Positions 287 through 5,169 of a stretch of 5,169 nucleotides of DNA are shown here, one piece after another. The position numbers and the translations under genes were made by a program. The notes below the pieces were generated by a model, which saw only the letters and a list, made by a program, of their open reading frames with translations, ran no database searches and had not been told where the DNA came from. Every line of letters begins with the position of its first letter. Positions within the stretch are counted from its first letter, which is position 1. Origin of the DNA: a candidate division TA06 bacterium SM23_40 (GTDB taxonomy: Bacteria; LJUI01; SM1-40); the NCBI GenBank assembly GCA_001303705.1, contig LJUI01000171.1, positions 1-5,169 on the forward strand, written 5' to 3'.

Positions 287-2203
287 TTACTCTCTGCCCA
301 TCTGTTCCACGAAGCTGCTCACGCTGGCAGCCACTTCCTCCGCATCGAGGATGGGCGCCGAACAGGCTCGCCCGACGCAGACGAAGATGGCGGGGTCCAT
401 GTCCGTGGGAAACCCCCGGGCCTCGACCTCCTCACGTTCACTCTTCGGGTCGAGCAACTGTACGTGTTTGCCCGGTTCATACAGGCGGAGCGACTCTCTC
501 AACAGGGCCCTTGTCTGGGCCTCCTCCGGGGAACCGATAATCATCATCCGCACCGGATAGTCGAGGTATCGCTGGAGTGCGAGGCCGTATGCCCCCGCCC
601 GGTCCCCGAATCGGCCCCAGTCTCCCGACCAGCGAGTCAGAATCCGACGAGCCACATCCCTGTACATCGGCTCCTCGGTGCACCAATTGAGCCTCAGGAG
701 GACGAGCGCCCCCACGAGGTTCGCGTCGAATGAGGGGTTGTTGACTAACGCAGCGGCGGGTGGCCACGACTCGCCTGAATGAGCGACGAAGACATCGGCC
801 GTCTCCTGCCACTGCTCTTCGAGTGCGCGATCGACGAGCTGGCGTGCCCGCAGAAGGTACCTTGGCACACCTGTGTAGGCATAGGCGTCAAGCAGAGCCC
901 GGGCAAGCCACATACCATCAGCCACCAACCCGGGTGCCGAACCCGCCCCACGCTCGATATCGAAGACATGGTAGACGCGACCGTCCTCGCCCACGGCACG
1001 GTCCCACAGATCGTCGAGCAGCCCCAGCGCACGCTCTGTCCAGGTCTCATTCTGCAACACGAGCCCTGCCTTCAGGCCGAGAGATACCATCCTCGCGTTG
1101 CGATCGGTGTACAGCGTTCCATCCACGGGCGGCGCTGCCCCAGCCTCTGAGCGGCCCGCGCGGTCAAGCGCAAAATAAGCCTCGTCGCCTAACTGGCCGG
1201 CACGAAATGCGTCGATGTTCTCGTCGTAGAGCACGGTCAGGAGGAACCTCAGGATATCGCGTGCCGCACGCGGGTGGTCCTCCTTGCCCGTAGCCTCCCA
1301 GGCCTCCAGGTAGCTCAACGCAAGATCAGCATTGATCGCCAGATTCTTCCCCCCGGGTCCGCTGACTCCTCCCTCAACCTCATCCCAGTACCCGGCTTCT
1401 CTCACTGAGACGAGGGCGTCGCTTGCCAGGACCGCCAGGCTCTCCTCGCCTCGTGTGTGACCCAGGTACAGAAGGAGAGAGATGGCACTCGGATCTCGAA
1501 CCTTTCCGTCCTGGCCGGGCCCCCCGCCTGGTCCGCTCAAAGCACTGCGGAGCGAGGCGGCCACGCGATCAACAAGGTCGTTCGACAGCTCGCGCGTCTG
1601 TACCCGCCTCCTCATGATGAGAGGCTGCTCCCAGGCGATGACAGGCGCTTGCCCGGGGCCCTCGGGCCAGCGCTCGTAGAACATGTTAGTCTCCACTGCA
1701 TAGTCCAGAAACTCCTCCGTCCCCGGTGGATCGAGGAACCCTGCCGCCTGGATAAGCTGTCCCGACGCGTGGATGGAGACGATACCCGGCTCTCCTTCCT
1801 TCGGTACCAGCGCACCCGACCAGACCAACCGTTTCACTTCGGGGTGCCGCTCGATGTCGACGCGGATGGGAACACACTCTCTGTTGAGTCGCTCGATGAT
1901 GAGAGAGTCGGAGAGTGTGGTTTCATCGAACTGCCTCGCTTCTCGTATGGGCAGCGCCGTCATGACGAGCACGACCGGTCTTTCCTGCCGGCCTGCCCTC
2001 TCGAAAGCCTGCCTGCCCCAGGGCTCCCAGTCGATGAGAGAAGCTCGGTTCGCCCCCGGAGAGAACCGCATCTCCGCACCTTCGATGATCTCCGGTTCGG
2101 GGAGTTCGATTTCGCCCCTGCCGCACGAGAGGGAGAGGACCGTGCACAGGAGGACGGCGGATACGGCCAACAGAACCCGATGTCGCAGCCGCTCACTACC
2201 CAT
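287..2203 (-). CDS. Exported DUF255/YyaL-like protein with degenerate thioredoxin domain
   Basis: A 638-residue protein related to the YyaL/SPATA20 family, which joins a thioredoxin-like domain (DUF255) to an alpha/alpha-barrel resembling N-acylglucosamine 2-epimerases. Its biochemical role is not established in the family. Residues 1-27 look like a lipoprotein signal ending LSLSC (C27; -3 is Ser, so the lipobox is imperfect). The thioredoxin-like part (about 55-170) aligns by eye with the family: IDWEPWGRQAFERA (57-70), RPVVLV (75-80), LNREC...IRVDIERHPEV (106-123). The usual CHWCH motif would fall near 84-90, where LPIREAR stands instead, so the CxxC is gone. The helical barrel covers about 200-560. 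The C-terminal FVCVGRAC (607-614) matches the family's terminal two-cysteine pattern. Length is slightly short for the family (about 670-700) and no frameshift is seen. It lies 29 bases behind the TlpA-like gene. Residues 470-519 are duplicated in DNA 645 bp further left. Most members I know of lack an export signal, so secretion is noteworthy. Confidence 0.85.
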   Translation of the reverse strand: MGSERLRHRVLLAVSAVLLCTVLSLSCGRGEIELPEPEIIEGAEMRFSPGANRASLIDWEPWGRQAFERAGRQERPVVLVMTALPIREARQFDETTLSDSLIIERLNRECVPIRVDIERHPEVKRLVWSGALVPKEGEPGIVSIHASGQLIQAAGFLDPPGTEEFLDYAVETNMFYERWPEGPGQAPVIAWEQPLIMRRRVQTRELSNDLVDRVAASLRSALSGPGGGPGQDGKVRDPSAISLLLYLGHTRGEESLAVLASDALVSVREAGYWDEVEGGVSGPGGKNLAINADLALSYLEAWEATGKEDHPRAARDILRFLLTVLYDENIDAFRAGQLGDEAYFALDRAGRSEAGAAPPVDGTLYTDRNARMVSLGLKAGLVLQNETWTERALGLLDDLWDRAVGEDGRVYHVFDIERGAGSAPGLVADGMWLARALLDAYAYTGVPRYLLRARQLVDRALEEQWQETADVFVAHSGESWPPAAALVNNPSFDANLVGALVLLRLNWCTEEPMYRDVARRILTRWSGDWGRFGDRAGAYGLALQRYLDYPVRMMIIGSPEEAQTRALLRESLRLYEPGKHVQLLDPKSEREEVEARGFPTDMDPAIFVCVGRACSAPILDAEEVAASVSSFVEQMGRE

Positions 2204-2232: not shown

Positions 2233-2733
2233 TCAGGAACGACCGAGCAGCCTCTTGATGTCGTTCTCGAAGACCGACTTGTCGCGGTAGCCCTGATACT
2301 TCTTATATATCTTGCCCTCGCGGTCGATGATGAACGTTGTGGGGATGCCGCGCACGCCACCGTATGCCTGCGTCACCTCGTCTGTACCGATGAGAGTCGT
2401 GTACTCGATCCCGCGCTCTTCGATGAATGGTTTGACGACTGATACCCCGCCGGCATCGAGCGCGATCCCGATGATCTCGAAGCCATCGACCTTGTAGGCA
2501 TCGTAGAGCTCCACGAAGTGGGGCAACTCCTGGATGCACGGCGGACACCACGTGGCCCAGAAATCGAGCAAGACGATCTTGCCCCGGAAATCCCGCAGGC
2601 TCACGTCCCGCCCGTCGAGGTTCTTGAGCGTGAAATCGGGAGCCATGTCGGCGGAGGTAGAGGGACTCTCCCCCTGCCCTCCACAACCCGCAAGTAGGAG
2701 GATGACGGCCAGGAAGCTGAGCATCGTTCTCAT
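2233..2733 (-). CDS. TlpA/ResA-family thioredoxin lipoprotein
   Basis: An extracytoplasmic thiol-disulfide oxidoreductase of the AhpC-TSA/Redoxin (TlpA/ResA) type, 166 residues. The N-terminus is a lipoprotein signal: a hydrophobic stretch (4-16) ending in the lipobox LLAGC, with C17 as the predicted lipidated cysteine. A short flexible linker (18-30) follows. The thioredoxin fold shows APDFTLKNLDG (31-41), then VLLDFWATWCPPC (54-66) with active-site C63 and C66, and the cis-proline loop GIPTTFIID (129-137, cis-Pro P131). The region around IIGIALD (87-93) is the family's central insertion and strand. All catalytic features are intact and the length is normal. Family members reduce cytochrome c apoprotein cysteines or other envelope thiols; the partner here is unknown. 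The next gene follows 29 bases after the TGA, so the two are almost certainly co-transcribed. It is not preceded by an obvious SigR-type promoter. Confidence 0.93.
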   Translation of the reverse strand: MRTMLSFLAVILLLAGCGGQGESPSTSADMAPDFTLKNLDGRDVSLRDFRGKIVLLDFWATWCPPCIQELPHFVELYDAYKVDGFEIIGIALDAGGVSVVKPFIEERGIEYTTLIGTDEVTQAYGGVRGIPTTFIIDREGKIYKKYQGYRDKSVFENDIKRLLGRS

Positions 2734-3099: not shown

Positions 3100-3888
3100 T
3101 CACCAGATTGCCGACGCCATGGCCACCAGGTCGTCTGCCGGCAGGTCTGATGCCAGACAGCAGGACATGGCTTCGTCCAACCAGACCACCAGGTTCGTTC
3201 CGTCGAAAAAGCAGAGGATGATCTCACGCCCTTCCACAATCTCCGTTCTCCCCTTGGGGAGGGATCGTATGGCATATTCGGGAGCGACGGCGAGGACGAC
3301 ACAGTGCTCTCCCATCTCGTACATCACGAGCCCGACGGGAAACCGGGATTTGGGACACGTGCAGGCCCCGCAGGGTTCCATCTCCACCCGCTTCAGCGCC
3401 TCTCCATGTATGGGGAGACCGGTCCTCTCGCTGAGCCACCTGGCGATCTCTTCGGGATTCGAGCTGTCCAGGTCGACCGTTCTCGAACCCTCCACGAATC
3501 CGGTGTGGAAGGCCAACGCCGCCTGGGCAATGCCGGGACCCCTTGCCCGGCTACTCAACCACCAGGTCCCGAGCACGAGCAGGATGAGGACAGCAGTGGC
3601 GGCGAAAGAGAAGGCCGGCGGCATCCTCAAACCACGAGGCACGAAAGCGCGGCGGAATTCTCTGTCTGCCACGTGCAGCGAGGCGACGACACGAGTTCGC
3701 ACCGATGCCGGCACATCCCTTACAGGCATCGTTTCCCGAATGAGGCCCTTGAGGGTACGCTCGAACTCCACCTTGCGTCGACACTCCTCACACCCATCGA
3801 GATGCTGCTGGATCCGCCGCATCTCGACCGGATCGAGCTCACCATCGAGCAGGTCATGAAGGTGGTGAGCGACGTTCTCACAACTCAT
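3100..3888 (-). CDS. Transmembrane zinc-type (ZAS) anti-sigma factor with Cys-rich external domain
   Basis: Probably holds the adjacent sigma factor inactive at the inner face of the membrane; 262 residues. The N-terminal anti-sigma domain (about 1-75) carries C3 and the H29-x3-C33-x2-C36 signature of zinc anti-sigma proteins (RsrA, RshA, RsiW), where such residues bind zinc and can act as a thiol switch. One hydrophobic segment (about 91-112) follows a basic stretch, predicting N-in/C-out topology. The outer part (about 113-262) has an RsiW-like pattern: [17 protein letters not shown] (144-160), then a strand-rich core, then [10 protein letters not shown] (229-238) and a final helix. Unusually it has seven cysteines: C173, C176 and C178 in PCGACTCP, then C196, C226, C243 and C244. 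RsrA and RshA themselves are soluble, so this looks like a SigR-type factor paired with a membrane-anchored sensor. Stop codon is TGA. The ATGA overlap with the sigma gene implies translational coupling. The sensed signal, redox, metal or envelope stress, is inference. Confidence 0.88.
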
Positions 3889-4478
3889 TCTTGCTTCTCC
3901 TTGACGAACCCTCGCTTGACGGCATAGTCCCACAGCTTCTGCTGGAGTAACCGCCTGCCACGAAACAGACGTGACCTGACAGTCCCCAACGGACATCCGA
4001 CGATGTCCGCTATCTCCTGATACGAGAACCCCTCGAGGTCCGACAACAGCACGGCAATCCGAAAATCGCTGGGCAGCTCCTCGAGCGCCTGTACCACTTC
4101 ATCTTCTACCAGATCCTCGAGCGCGTACCCCCCATTCTCAGGCGAAGGCGGCCCTGCCTTTCGGTCGGCCAGTTTCTCGTACAGGAAGAACGGGTTCGAC
4201 TCATCATATTGTGTGAATTTCGGCTCTTTCTTCTTCTTGCGGTATCTGTTTATAAATGTATTTGTCAGTATCTTGAACAGCCACGCCTTGAGGTTGGTGC
4301 CGGGCTCGAATCGGTGACAGAACCTGAATGCTTTGAGATACGTGTCCTGTACGAGGTCCTCCGCATCGTGTTCATTTCTCGTCATGCGGAGAGCAGTATT
4401 GTACAGCGCCTCCATGTAGCTCAGAGCCTCTTCTTCAAGGCCCGACCATACCTCTCGCCTGCGGGCGTGACCCAGCAC
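3885..4478 (-). CDS. ECF RNA polymerase sigma factor, SigR/SigH (ECF12)-like
   Basis: A sigma-70 family extracytoplasmic-function factor of 197 residues that directs RNA polymerase to a stress regulon. The sigma-2 region covers about residues 21-86. It includes [18 protein letters not shown] and then [20 protein letters not shown] followed by a KKKK basic patch; the NLKAWL...TNTFIN..RKK pattern is characteristic of SigR/SigH. A variable linker (87-123) follows. The sigma-4 region spans about 124-183: [21 protein letters not shown], then the helix-turn-helix [25 protein letters not shown] (151-175). No extra C-terminal domain is present, and the length is normal for the group. The GTG start has a purine-rich site in front; the first ~14 residues are poorly conserved, so a shorter start cannot be excluded. 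Its TGA overlaps the ATG of the anti-sigma gene. Autoregulation is likely through the upstream GGGAAC-N18-GTT element. ECF family is certain; the ECF12 subgroup is judged from motif resemblance. Confidence 0.93.
3897..3902 (-). promoter_or_regulatory. Ribosome-binding site fixing the anti-sigma start
   Basis: AAGGAG on the minus strand, inside the end of the sigma gene, lies 8 bases before the ATG at 3888-3886. The same frame is open a further 36 codons upstream, but this site, the ATGA overlap and the MSC start typical of ZAS proteins make 3888 the start. Confidence 0.75.
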
Positions 4479-4534: not shown

Positions 4535-4564
4535 GTCAACACAACCGATAGGGCGAAAGTTCCC
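4535..4564 (-). promoter_or_regulatory. Candidate SigR/SigH-type (ECF) promoter, autoregulatory
   Basis: The minus strand reads GGGAAC at 4564-4559, then exactly 18 bases, then GTTGAC at 4540-4535. The published SigR/SigH consensus is GGAA(T/C), a gap of about 18-19, then GTT, so elements and spacing both agree. The expected transcription start is near 4530, giving a leader of about 50 bases before the GTG at 4478. Autoregulation through such a site is the rule in SigR/SigH systems, and the gene it precedes encodes a sigma factor of that group. The match uses only about eight specified bases, so chance cannot be excluded. Confidence 0.55.
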
Positions 4565-4676: not shown

Positions 4677-5169
4677 CTACTCGCAGCGCGAGTACCCGCA
4701 GCCGCGGCAGACCTCGCATCCCTCGACGTACTCCAGTACCCCTCCACACCGCGCGCAGCGCTCGTACTGCCTCCCCGGCTCAGGCGGGACGCTGACGGGC
4801 TGCCCTCTCTCGGACTCATAGCGTACGAGGGCCCGGCCGATCGCATCGGGACAGGAGAGGATGGCGTGCCCGTTTCGCCAATAGGGACGCGGACATCTGA
4901 TCCCGCGCAGCTGCTTGATAATCGACTCCGGCTTGACTCCAGACCTGAGCGCCAGCGAGACGAGCCTGCTGATCGCCTCAGTCTGCGACGCCTCGCATCC
5001 TCCGCTCTTCCCGAGGCTGGCAAAGACCTCGAACGGGCCGTGCTCGTCGGCGTTGACGGTCACGTACAGGTTCCCACACCCGGTTCCGATCTTCTCGGTC
5101 GTTCCGGACGTGACTTCCGGTCTCGGCCTCGGCTTGCGCCGCTCCTCTGCCGGCGGCCCGATCGCCGCT
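4677..5169 (-). CDS. nrdJ: Vitamin B12-dependent (class II) ribonucleotide reductase, C-terminal part
   Basis: Reduces ribonucleotides to deoxyribonucleotides in the cytoplasm using adenosylcobalamin. Only the last 163 codons are visible. The frame stays open to the right edge, so the gene is partial at its 5' end, and it stops at a TAG (4679-4677). Numbering the visible residues from 1: a charged proline/arginine-rich linker (about 6-18), then TGCGNLYVTVN (28-38), FEVFASLGKSGGC (46-58), a helix with SLALRSGV and IIKQLRGIRCP, then ILSCPDAI (103-110). These blocks are typical of the NrdJ C-terminal region. The tail is a cysteine cluster: C138-x2-C141 and C151-x2-C154-x2-C157-x4-C162. Such C-terminal cysteines in class II enzymes are known to re-reduce the active-site disulfide and/or bind zinc. 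The valine GTG at 5063 is internal, because conserved family sequence continues upstream of it. The next gene starts 198 bases downstream behind its own promoter-like element, so it is probably a separate transcription unit. Family assignment is very secure. Confidence 0.95.
   Translation of the reverse strand, partial: AAIGPPAEERRKPRPRPEVTSGTTEKIGTGCGNLYVTVNADEHGPFEVFASLGKSGGCEASQTEAISRLVSLALRSGVKPESIIKQLRGIRCPRPYWRNGHAILSCPDAIGRALVRYESERGQPVSVPPEPGRQYERCARCGGVLEYVEGCEVCRGCGYSRCE

Follow-up and report, generated by a model that had tools for sequence, protein, structure and literature searches.

A SigR-like sigma factor paired with a membrane-anchored zinc anti-sigma factor whose outer cysteines may sense thiol stress in the envelope

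In Actinobacteria, the textbook switch for disulfide stress in the cytoplasm is SigR/RsrA. The anti-sigma factors of SigR-RsrA in Streptomyces coelicolor and of SigH-RshA in M. tuberculosis are soluble proteins, without a membrane helix or an outer domain. The zinc in RsrA is held by Cys11, His37, Cys41 and Cys44 (PMC4960319). Zinc anti-sigma (ZAS) proteins bound to the membrane have been described as well. RsiW of B. subtilis is one of them (PMC4960319); it is controlled by proteolysis, and its partner sigma W is not SigR-like. In M. tuberculosis, the partner of SigL, RslA, is a membrane-associated ZAS protein with an oxidant-responsive cytosolic domain, the redox switch lying in a cytosolic CXXC, and the available part of that source describes no outer thiol sensor (PMC2877774). 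The locus presented here resembles SigR-RsrA and SigH-RshA in sigma family and promoter type and has the same four zinc ligands as RsrA, whereas its anti-sigma factor possesses both a membrane helix and an outer domain. It is membrane-bound like RsiW, and a redox-responsive cytosolic domain of the RslA kind is possible in it too. Unlike SigR-RsrA, the two proteins score under the TIGR02947 and TIGR03988 cut-offs.

In this work, the window is the whole stretch of DNA that was analysed, a complete contig of 5169 bases. It belongs to a fragmented genome (2.88 Mb in 189 contigs), the sole one of its phylum among the genomes searched. The order on the minus strand is the end of a ribonucleotide reductase gene, the ECF sigma factor, the anti-sigma factor, a TlpA/ResA-like lipoprotein and a DUF255 lipoprotein (Table 1). 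The anti-sigma start overlaps the sigma stop by 4 nt (ATGA).

Table 1. Features of the window; residue numbers are those of the anti-sigma factor.
Feature	Position	Strand	Basis or remark
B12-dependent ribonucleotide reductase, C-terminal end	4677-5168	-	
Candidate autoregulatory SigR-type promoter GGGAAC-N18-GTT (GGGAACTTTCGCCCTATCGGTTGTGTT)	4538..4564	-	Pattern search
SigR/SigH-like ECF sigma factor, 197 aa, GTG start	3885..4478	-	TIGR02947, PDB match, relatives
Membrane-anchored zinc anti-sigma factor (predicted), 262 aa	3100..3888	-	zf-HC2, TIGR03988, hydropathy, AlphaFold
ZAS domain, residues 1-37 (C3, H29, C33, C36)	3778..3888	-	Pfam zf-HC2, 8.6e-11
Transmembrane helix, residues 91-112	3553..3618	-	Hydropathy and AlphaFold
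Outer domain, residues 113-262, seven cysteines	3103..3552	-	HMM and modelled RseB/MucB-like fold
PCGACTCP, residues 172-179 (C173, C176, C178)	3352..3375	-	Translation
C196	3301..3303	-	Translation
C226	3211..3213	-	Strand beside the hairpin where Zixibacteria carry HxCxxC
C243-C244	3157..3162	-	Translation
TlpA/ResA-like lipoprotein thiol-disulfide oxidoreductase (WCPPC)	2233..2733	-	366 nt downstream of the anti-sigma gene
Lipoprotein with DUF255/Thioredox_DsbH domain	287..2203	-	Possibly one operon with TlpA

The top NCBIfam match of the sigma factor is TIGR02947 (SigH/SigR) with 205.3 bits, under the curated cut-off of 251.55 bits, and the next family reaches 127.5 bits. The best PDB match is SigH of M. 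tuberculosis (158.7 bits), with SigE at about 98 bits. The best relatives in a search of 84,980 species are actinobacterial SigR proteins (about 50-56%) and, at up to 58%, proteins of Candidatus Zixibacteria/GN15. They were gathered with the sigma factor as bait, since a six-row alignment was too divergent for a profile scan of genome contigs, which had given no relative; no close homologue of the window anti-sigma factor was found. In a tree of 130 rows, the sigma factor falls within a 79-row set that includes Zixibacteria and actinobacterial SigR (94% SH-aLRT), among surrounding branches that are weak and long. The preliminary description of this DNA had called the sigma factor SigR-type and had made its ECF12 membership a matter for phylogeny. 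The first part stands to the extent that SigR/SigH are its nearest relatives and a SigR-type promoter precedes it; the tree places it with Zixibacteria and actinobacterial SigR, but its own position there is weak. Because of this weak placement and the missed TIGR02947 cut-off, we call it SigR-like and not ECF12.

The candidate autoregulatory promoter, GGGAAC-N18-GTT, ends 59 nt before the GTG start of the sigma gene. The form GGGAAY-N18-GTT has 52 sites in the 2.88-Mb genome, and about 0.002 would be expected per 200-nt stretch on the right strand. Among related non-actinobacterial loci, GGAAY-N17-19-GTT lies 5' of the sigma gene in 31 of 36 (1 on the opposite strand, 0.85 in shuffles), and 25 of 43 actinobacterial loci have the GGAAT form. 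Both these 52 sites and the 26 genome sites of GGAAC-N17-TGTT are mostly within genes, and therefore the sigma factor's own site alone was taken as evidence. The pattern search found no SigR-type promoter before the tlpA of the window. Two candidate regulon members elsewhere in the genome are preceded by GGAAC-N17-TGTT, an nfu-like Fe-S carrier gene (115 nt; G000:C118 near 4345, L296) and the arsenite methyltransferase gene arsM (60 nt; G000:C48 near 8045, L290). A SigR-type promoter-like site also lies upstream of a gene for an Omp28-type redox protein (G000:C19 near 62355-62800, L284), in which an in-frame TGA is read through at TSU-SSC. This protein is likely a selenoprotein, because of the in-frame TGA, the match to NCBIfam Omp28_seleno (53.6 bits, under the cut-off) and the presence of SelB in the genome.

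The anti-sigma factor matches zf-HC2 with 42.2 bits (cut-off 22.2), and this match, together with the translation, confirms the ZAS signature C3, H29-x3-C33-x2-C36 that had been read from the letters. The four residues are invariant in a 25-row alignment. The protein combines HxxxCxxC with an anti-sigma domain adjoining an ECF sigma gene, by which ZAS anti-sigma factors are recognised, and is predicted to bind zinc and to inhibit the sigma factor. The ZAS domain of its model matches the structures of RsiW (Z 7.3) and RslA (Z 6.8). Its score against TIGR03988, the RsrA equivalog model, is 59.3 bits, below the cut-off of 62.5; membrane partners of other lineages score 48-56 bits, and the cut-off is reached by both soluble partners tested, one from Zixibacteria (L145) and one actinobacterial (L168). 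The single membrane helix proposed at 91-112 is upheld by hydropathy (2.03 over residues 93-111) and by an AlphaFold helix at 91-115, and the translation gives exactly the seven outer cysteines claimed before, 173, 176, 178, 196, 226, 243 and 244, together with PCGACTCP. A chance ORF is ruled out by full-length homologues with the same layout of ZAS domain, helix and outer domain in many genomes. It is nearly certain that the architecture and the pairing are real.

Adjacent partners could be scored for 91 distinct SigR-like sigma factors, and 45 of them are membrane proteins and 46 are short soluble proteins like RsrA. The membrane partners come from several phyla, mostly with the layout and the outer domain of the window protein. 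The combination of a SigR-like sigma factor with a membrane partner carrying outer thiols, first noticed in the window, is in this sense a recurrent natural arrangement. At least ten switches between membrane and soluble partners are needed on the sigma tree, which is weak, and soluble anti-sigma factors are described as truncated derivatives of membrane forms (PMC8103513). Such interchange would suit a sensor made of the cytoplasmic ZAS cysteines alone, as in RslA, with the helix and the outer domain serving for localisation or being inherited parts. All ZAS ligands are kept, the RsrA model gives the 59.3 bits mentioned above, and RslA is itself a membrane ZAS protein with a redox-sensitive cytosolic domain (PMC2877774). 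On the other hand, the ZAS motif is present in RsiW too and is structural there, and the outer domain is kept folded across phyla with recurrent cysteines. We regard sensing by the ZAS cysteines alone as very unlikely. Three partners of SigR-like sigma factors (L211, L219, L222) have another outer domain instead, in which CxxC or CxCC is conserved together with C-x3-GH further on. In 23 loci, mostly of Zixibacteria (e.g., L130:5401-6501), the gene downstream of the anti-sigma gene encodes a conserved TPR protein.

An HMM of other outer domains, built without the window protein, gives that protein 77.8 bits, and 1000 shuffles reach at most 7.2; the profile used to gather the homologues for this HMM did, however, contain the window protein. 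In the AlphaFold model of the window protein, the outer strands from residue 181 onwards have mostly pLDDT 80-94, and the preceding loop (170-181), which holds PCGACTCP, has about 56. The model of a Zixibacteria protein (L129) has mostly 86-97 in the outer domain and a poor ZAS domain. The C-terminal domain of RseB/MucB is the top match of the window outer model (Z 9.2, rmsd 2.6, 93 residues), and RseB also comes first for the Zixibacteria one (Z 8.6, rmsd 3.0, 95 residues). A new outer fold was rejected, since two separate models resemble RseB/MucB. As the Z values are modest and the identity is 6-14%, this is to be read as fold resemblance only. The identity of the window outer domain to the RseB/MucB domain is about 11%, and RseB and MucB differ from it in being separate periplasmic proteins that bind RseA and MucA. 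The modelled fold resembles a domain of the proteolysis-controlled RpoE/AlgU systems and speaks for an ordinary RsiW/RseA-type anti-sigma factor, which responds to another envelope signal (misfolded proteins, lipids or cell-wall damage) through site-1/site-2 proteolysis and whose outer cysteines form structural disulfides. This explanation, which we consider unlikely, also agrees with the finding that the ZAS motif of RsiW can be purely structural (PMC7406223).

On average, 3.1 outer cysteines accompany SigR-like sigma factors (n = 52) and 1.5 accompany other sigma factors (n = 14) in the same domain (Mann-Whitney p 5e-4, for rows that are related and not independent). That the same domain serves other sigma factors with few or no cysteines fits the RsiW/RseA type, whereas the enrichment with SigR-like sigma factors speaks against it. 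Furthermore, 21 of 22 membrane proteins of the Zixibacteria group, a set which includes a few records titled Calditrichota or unclassified, carry HxCxxC or a motif much like it, placed in a hairpin by a confident model, the second cysteine being invariant and the first at least 90% conserved. So short a motif in a hairpin turn would be atypical of a structural disulfide. The window outer domain is without this HxCxxC. Its own cysteines are shared unevenly among 65 other outer domains: C243 is the most widely shared (14), followed by C178 (8), C176 (6) and C244 (5) in several lineages, then C196 (2) and C173 (1), and none has a cysteine at the column of C226. The preliminary description had staked its proposal on conservation in close homologues; among the distant ones available, C243, C176, C178 and, less so, C244 recur in other lineages, but most of the cysteines are not kept. 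Of the seven proteins that carry C176, six also possess C243, a hint at C176 and C243 as a pair, though four of these are from one family. By the strand order of the AlphaFold model, C226 and C243/C244 would be two strands apart. Five SigR-paired outer domains have no cysteine at all (Nitrospinota L170/L173, L007, L038, L044), so the architecture does not depend on the thiols. Three related outer domains that go with other sigma factors (L039, L043, L049) end in CLMCH, CIVCH and CVVCH, forms of the CxxCH motif typical of c-type haem; a haem-bearing anti-sigma factor, if true, would be worth a look.

The gene context points to thiol chemistry in the envelope, in agreement with the earlier suggestion that the external thiols act as an envelope sensor. 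Downstream of the pair in the window, the TlpA-like lipoprotein gene lies on the same strand. At the locus of the best full-length homologue of the window anti-sigma factor (G058), whose phylum is represented by one genome among those searched, a CcdA-type membrane thiol carrier gene begins 32 nt past the anti-sigma gene and is followed by a TlpA that is 50% identical to that of the window; the sigma gene there has the same promoter type, GGAAY-N17-19-GTT, upstream. The genome of G009, source of another of the closest full-length homologues, yielded a single CcdA gene, situated 1.2 kb upstream of the sigma gene. The linkage to thiol genes is three of three in a set chosen after the fact (the window, G058 and G009), and no TlpA or CcdA neighbours were seen at the Zixibacteria loci. 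Thiol-reductant genes near these three loci again argue against the RsiW/RseA type. The DUF255/Thioredox_DsbH lipoprotein probably has no oxidoreductase activity, because its thioredoxin-like part is without CxxC. Four of the Zixibacteria loci (L126, L129, L130, L148) do have a DCC1-like thiol-disulfide oxidoreductase gene divergent from the sigma gene. Many species of Microbacteriaceae have a TlpA/ResA-like gene on the strand opposite to sigR, about 2.7 kb upstream of it (e.g., L181:933-1319).

The outer cysteines, with the histidine in Zixibacteria, could instead be an external binding site for a thiophilic metal or metalloid. Both CGACTC and HxCxxC would be plausible metal sites, the exchanged outer domains of L211, L219 and L222 have CxxC or CxCC followed by a later Cys and GH, and the cysteines of NrsF matter in a system that responds to chromium and cadmium (PMC3511200). 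The promoter-like site 60 nt upstream of arsM in the genome of the window can be cited for a metal sensor too, although chance could account for it, the genome having 26 such matches. Moreover, no metal-transport gene adjoins the pair of the window, and the cysteine positions vary among lineages. We consider metal sensing to be quite unlikely. The sequences are compatible with redox as well as metal sensing, and with outer as well as inner sensing.

We hypothesize, giving it an even chance, that the pair is an envelope thiol sensor in which the outer thiols do the sensing. The ZAS anti-sigma factor would hold the SigR-like sigma factor at the membrane, with the thiols carried by the outer domain, which resembles the C-terminal domain of RseB. 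These cysteines may be kept reduced or metal-free by TlpA, and by CcdA where it is linked. Oxidative or thiophilic stress on the outer side of the membrane would change the state of these thiols and so alter the outer domain, whereupon the ZAS domain frees the sigma factor, either directly or after regulated proteolysis. The freed sigma factor would then transcribe its own operon from GGAAC-N18-GTT and, in G058, also the linked CcdA/TlpA genes. The sequences show the architecture, the pairing, a promoter-like site, the recurrence in several phyla, outer thiols as a class and the linkage to TlpA/CcdA; from these we infer that the outer thiols sense, that the signal is redox, how the sigma factor is released and what its regulon is. 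Possibly, the thiol sets inside and outside the membrane feed one switch. A wider reading, which we hold only tentatively and think somewhat doubtful, is that these loci form an unrecognised, widespread branch of SigR/RsrA that reads thiols outside the membrane by lineage-specific redox-active cysteines and controls CcdA/TlpA.

The nearest experimental parallel to outer thiol sensing, from an unrelated sequence family, is OsrA/NrsF, which act with EcfF/SigF (ECF16). They are membrane anti-sigma factors with two conserved functional cysteines, one of them predicted to be exposed to the periplasm (PMC3420878, PMC3511200). The response to H2O2 depends on Cys179 of OsrA, whose sigma factor co-regulates a DsbD-like protein and a thioredoxin of the periplasm (PMC3420878). 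OsrA and NrsF differ from the window protein in their DUF1109 domain with six membrane helices and in their unrelated sigma group; a DUF1109-type assignment of the window protein was rejected, as it has no DUF1109 match and one helix instead of six. The contrast drawn in the preliminary description, between soluble redox-sensing ZAS proteins and proteolysed membrane ones, is incomplete, since RslA is already a membrane ZAS protein with a redox-sensitive cytosolic domain (PMC2877774) and OsrA/NrsF are membrane anti-sigma factors with functional cysteines. In the open-access literature, we recognised no described membrane-bound RsrA and no CcdA/TlpA-linked ECF pair of this kind. In a coevolution study, the RsrA anti-sigma group was confined to Actinobacteria, and non-actinobacterial ECF12 sigma factors had no recognised anti-sigma factor nearby (PMC7406223). 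The non-actinobacterial SigR-like sigma factors seen here adjoin RsrA-like proteins, which are often anchored in the membrane and carry outer thiols. Should these thiols act as sensors, a single sigma family would, by exchanging its inhibitor, follow the redox state of either membrane side, and the route from an outer thiol signal to a cytoplasmic zinc anti-sigma domain could be tested by simple cysteine mutants. It would mean that the SigR/RsrA paradigm extends across the membrane.
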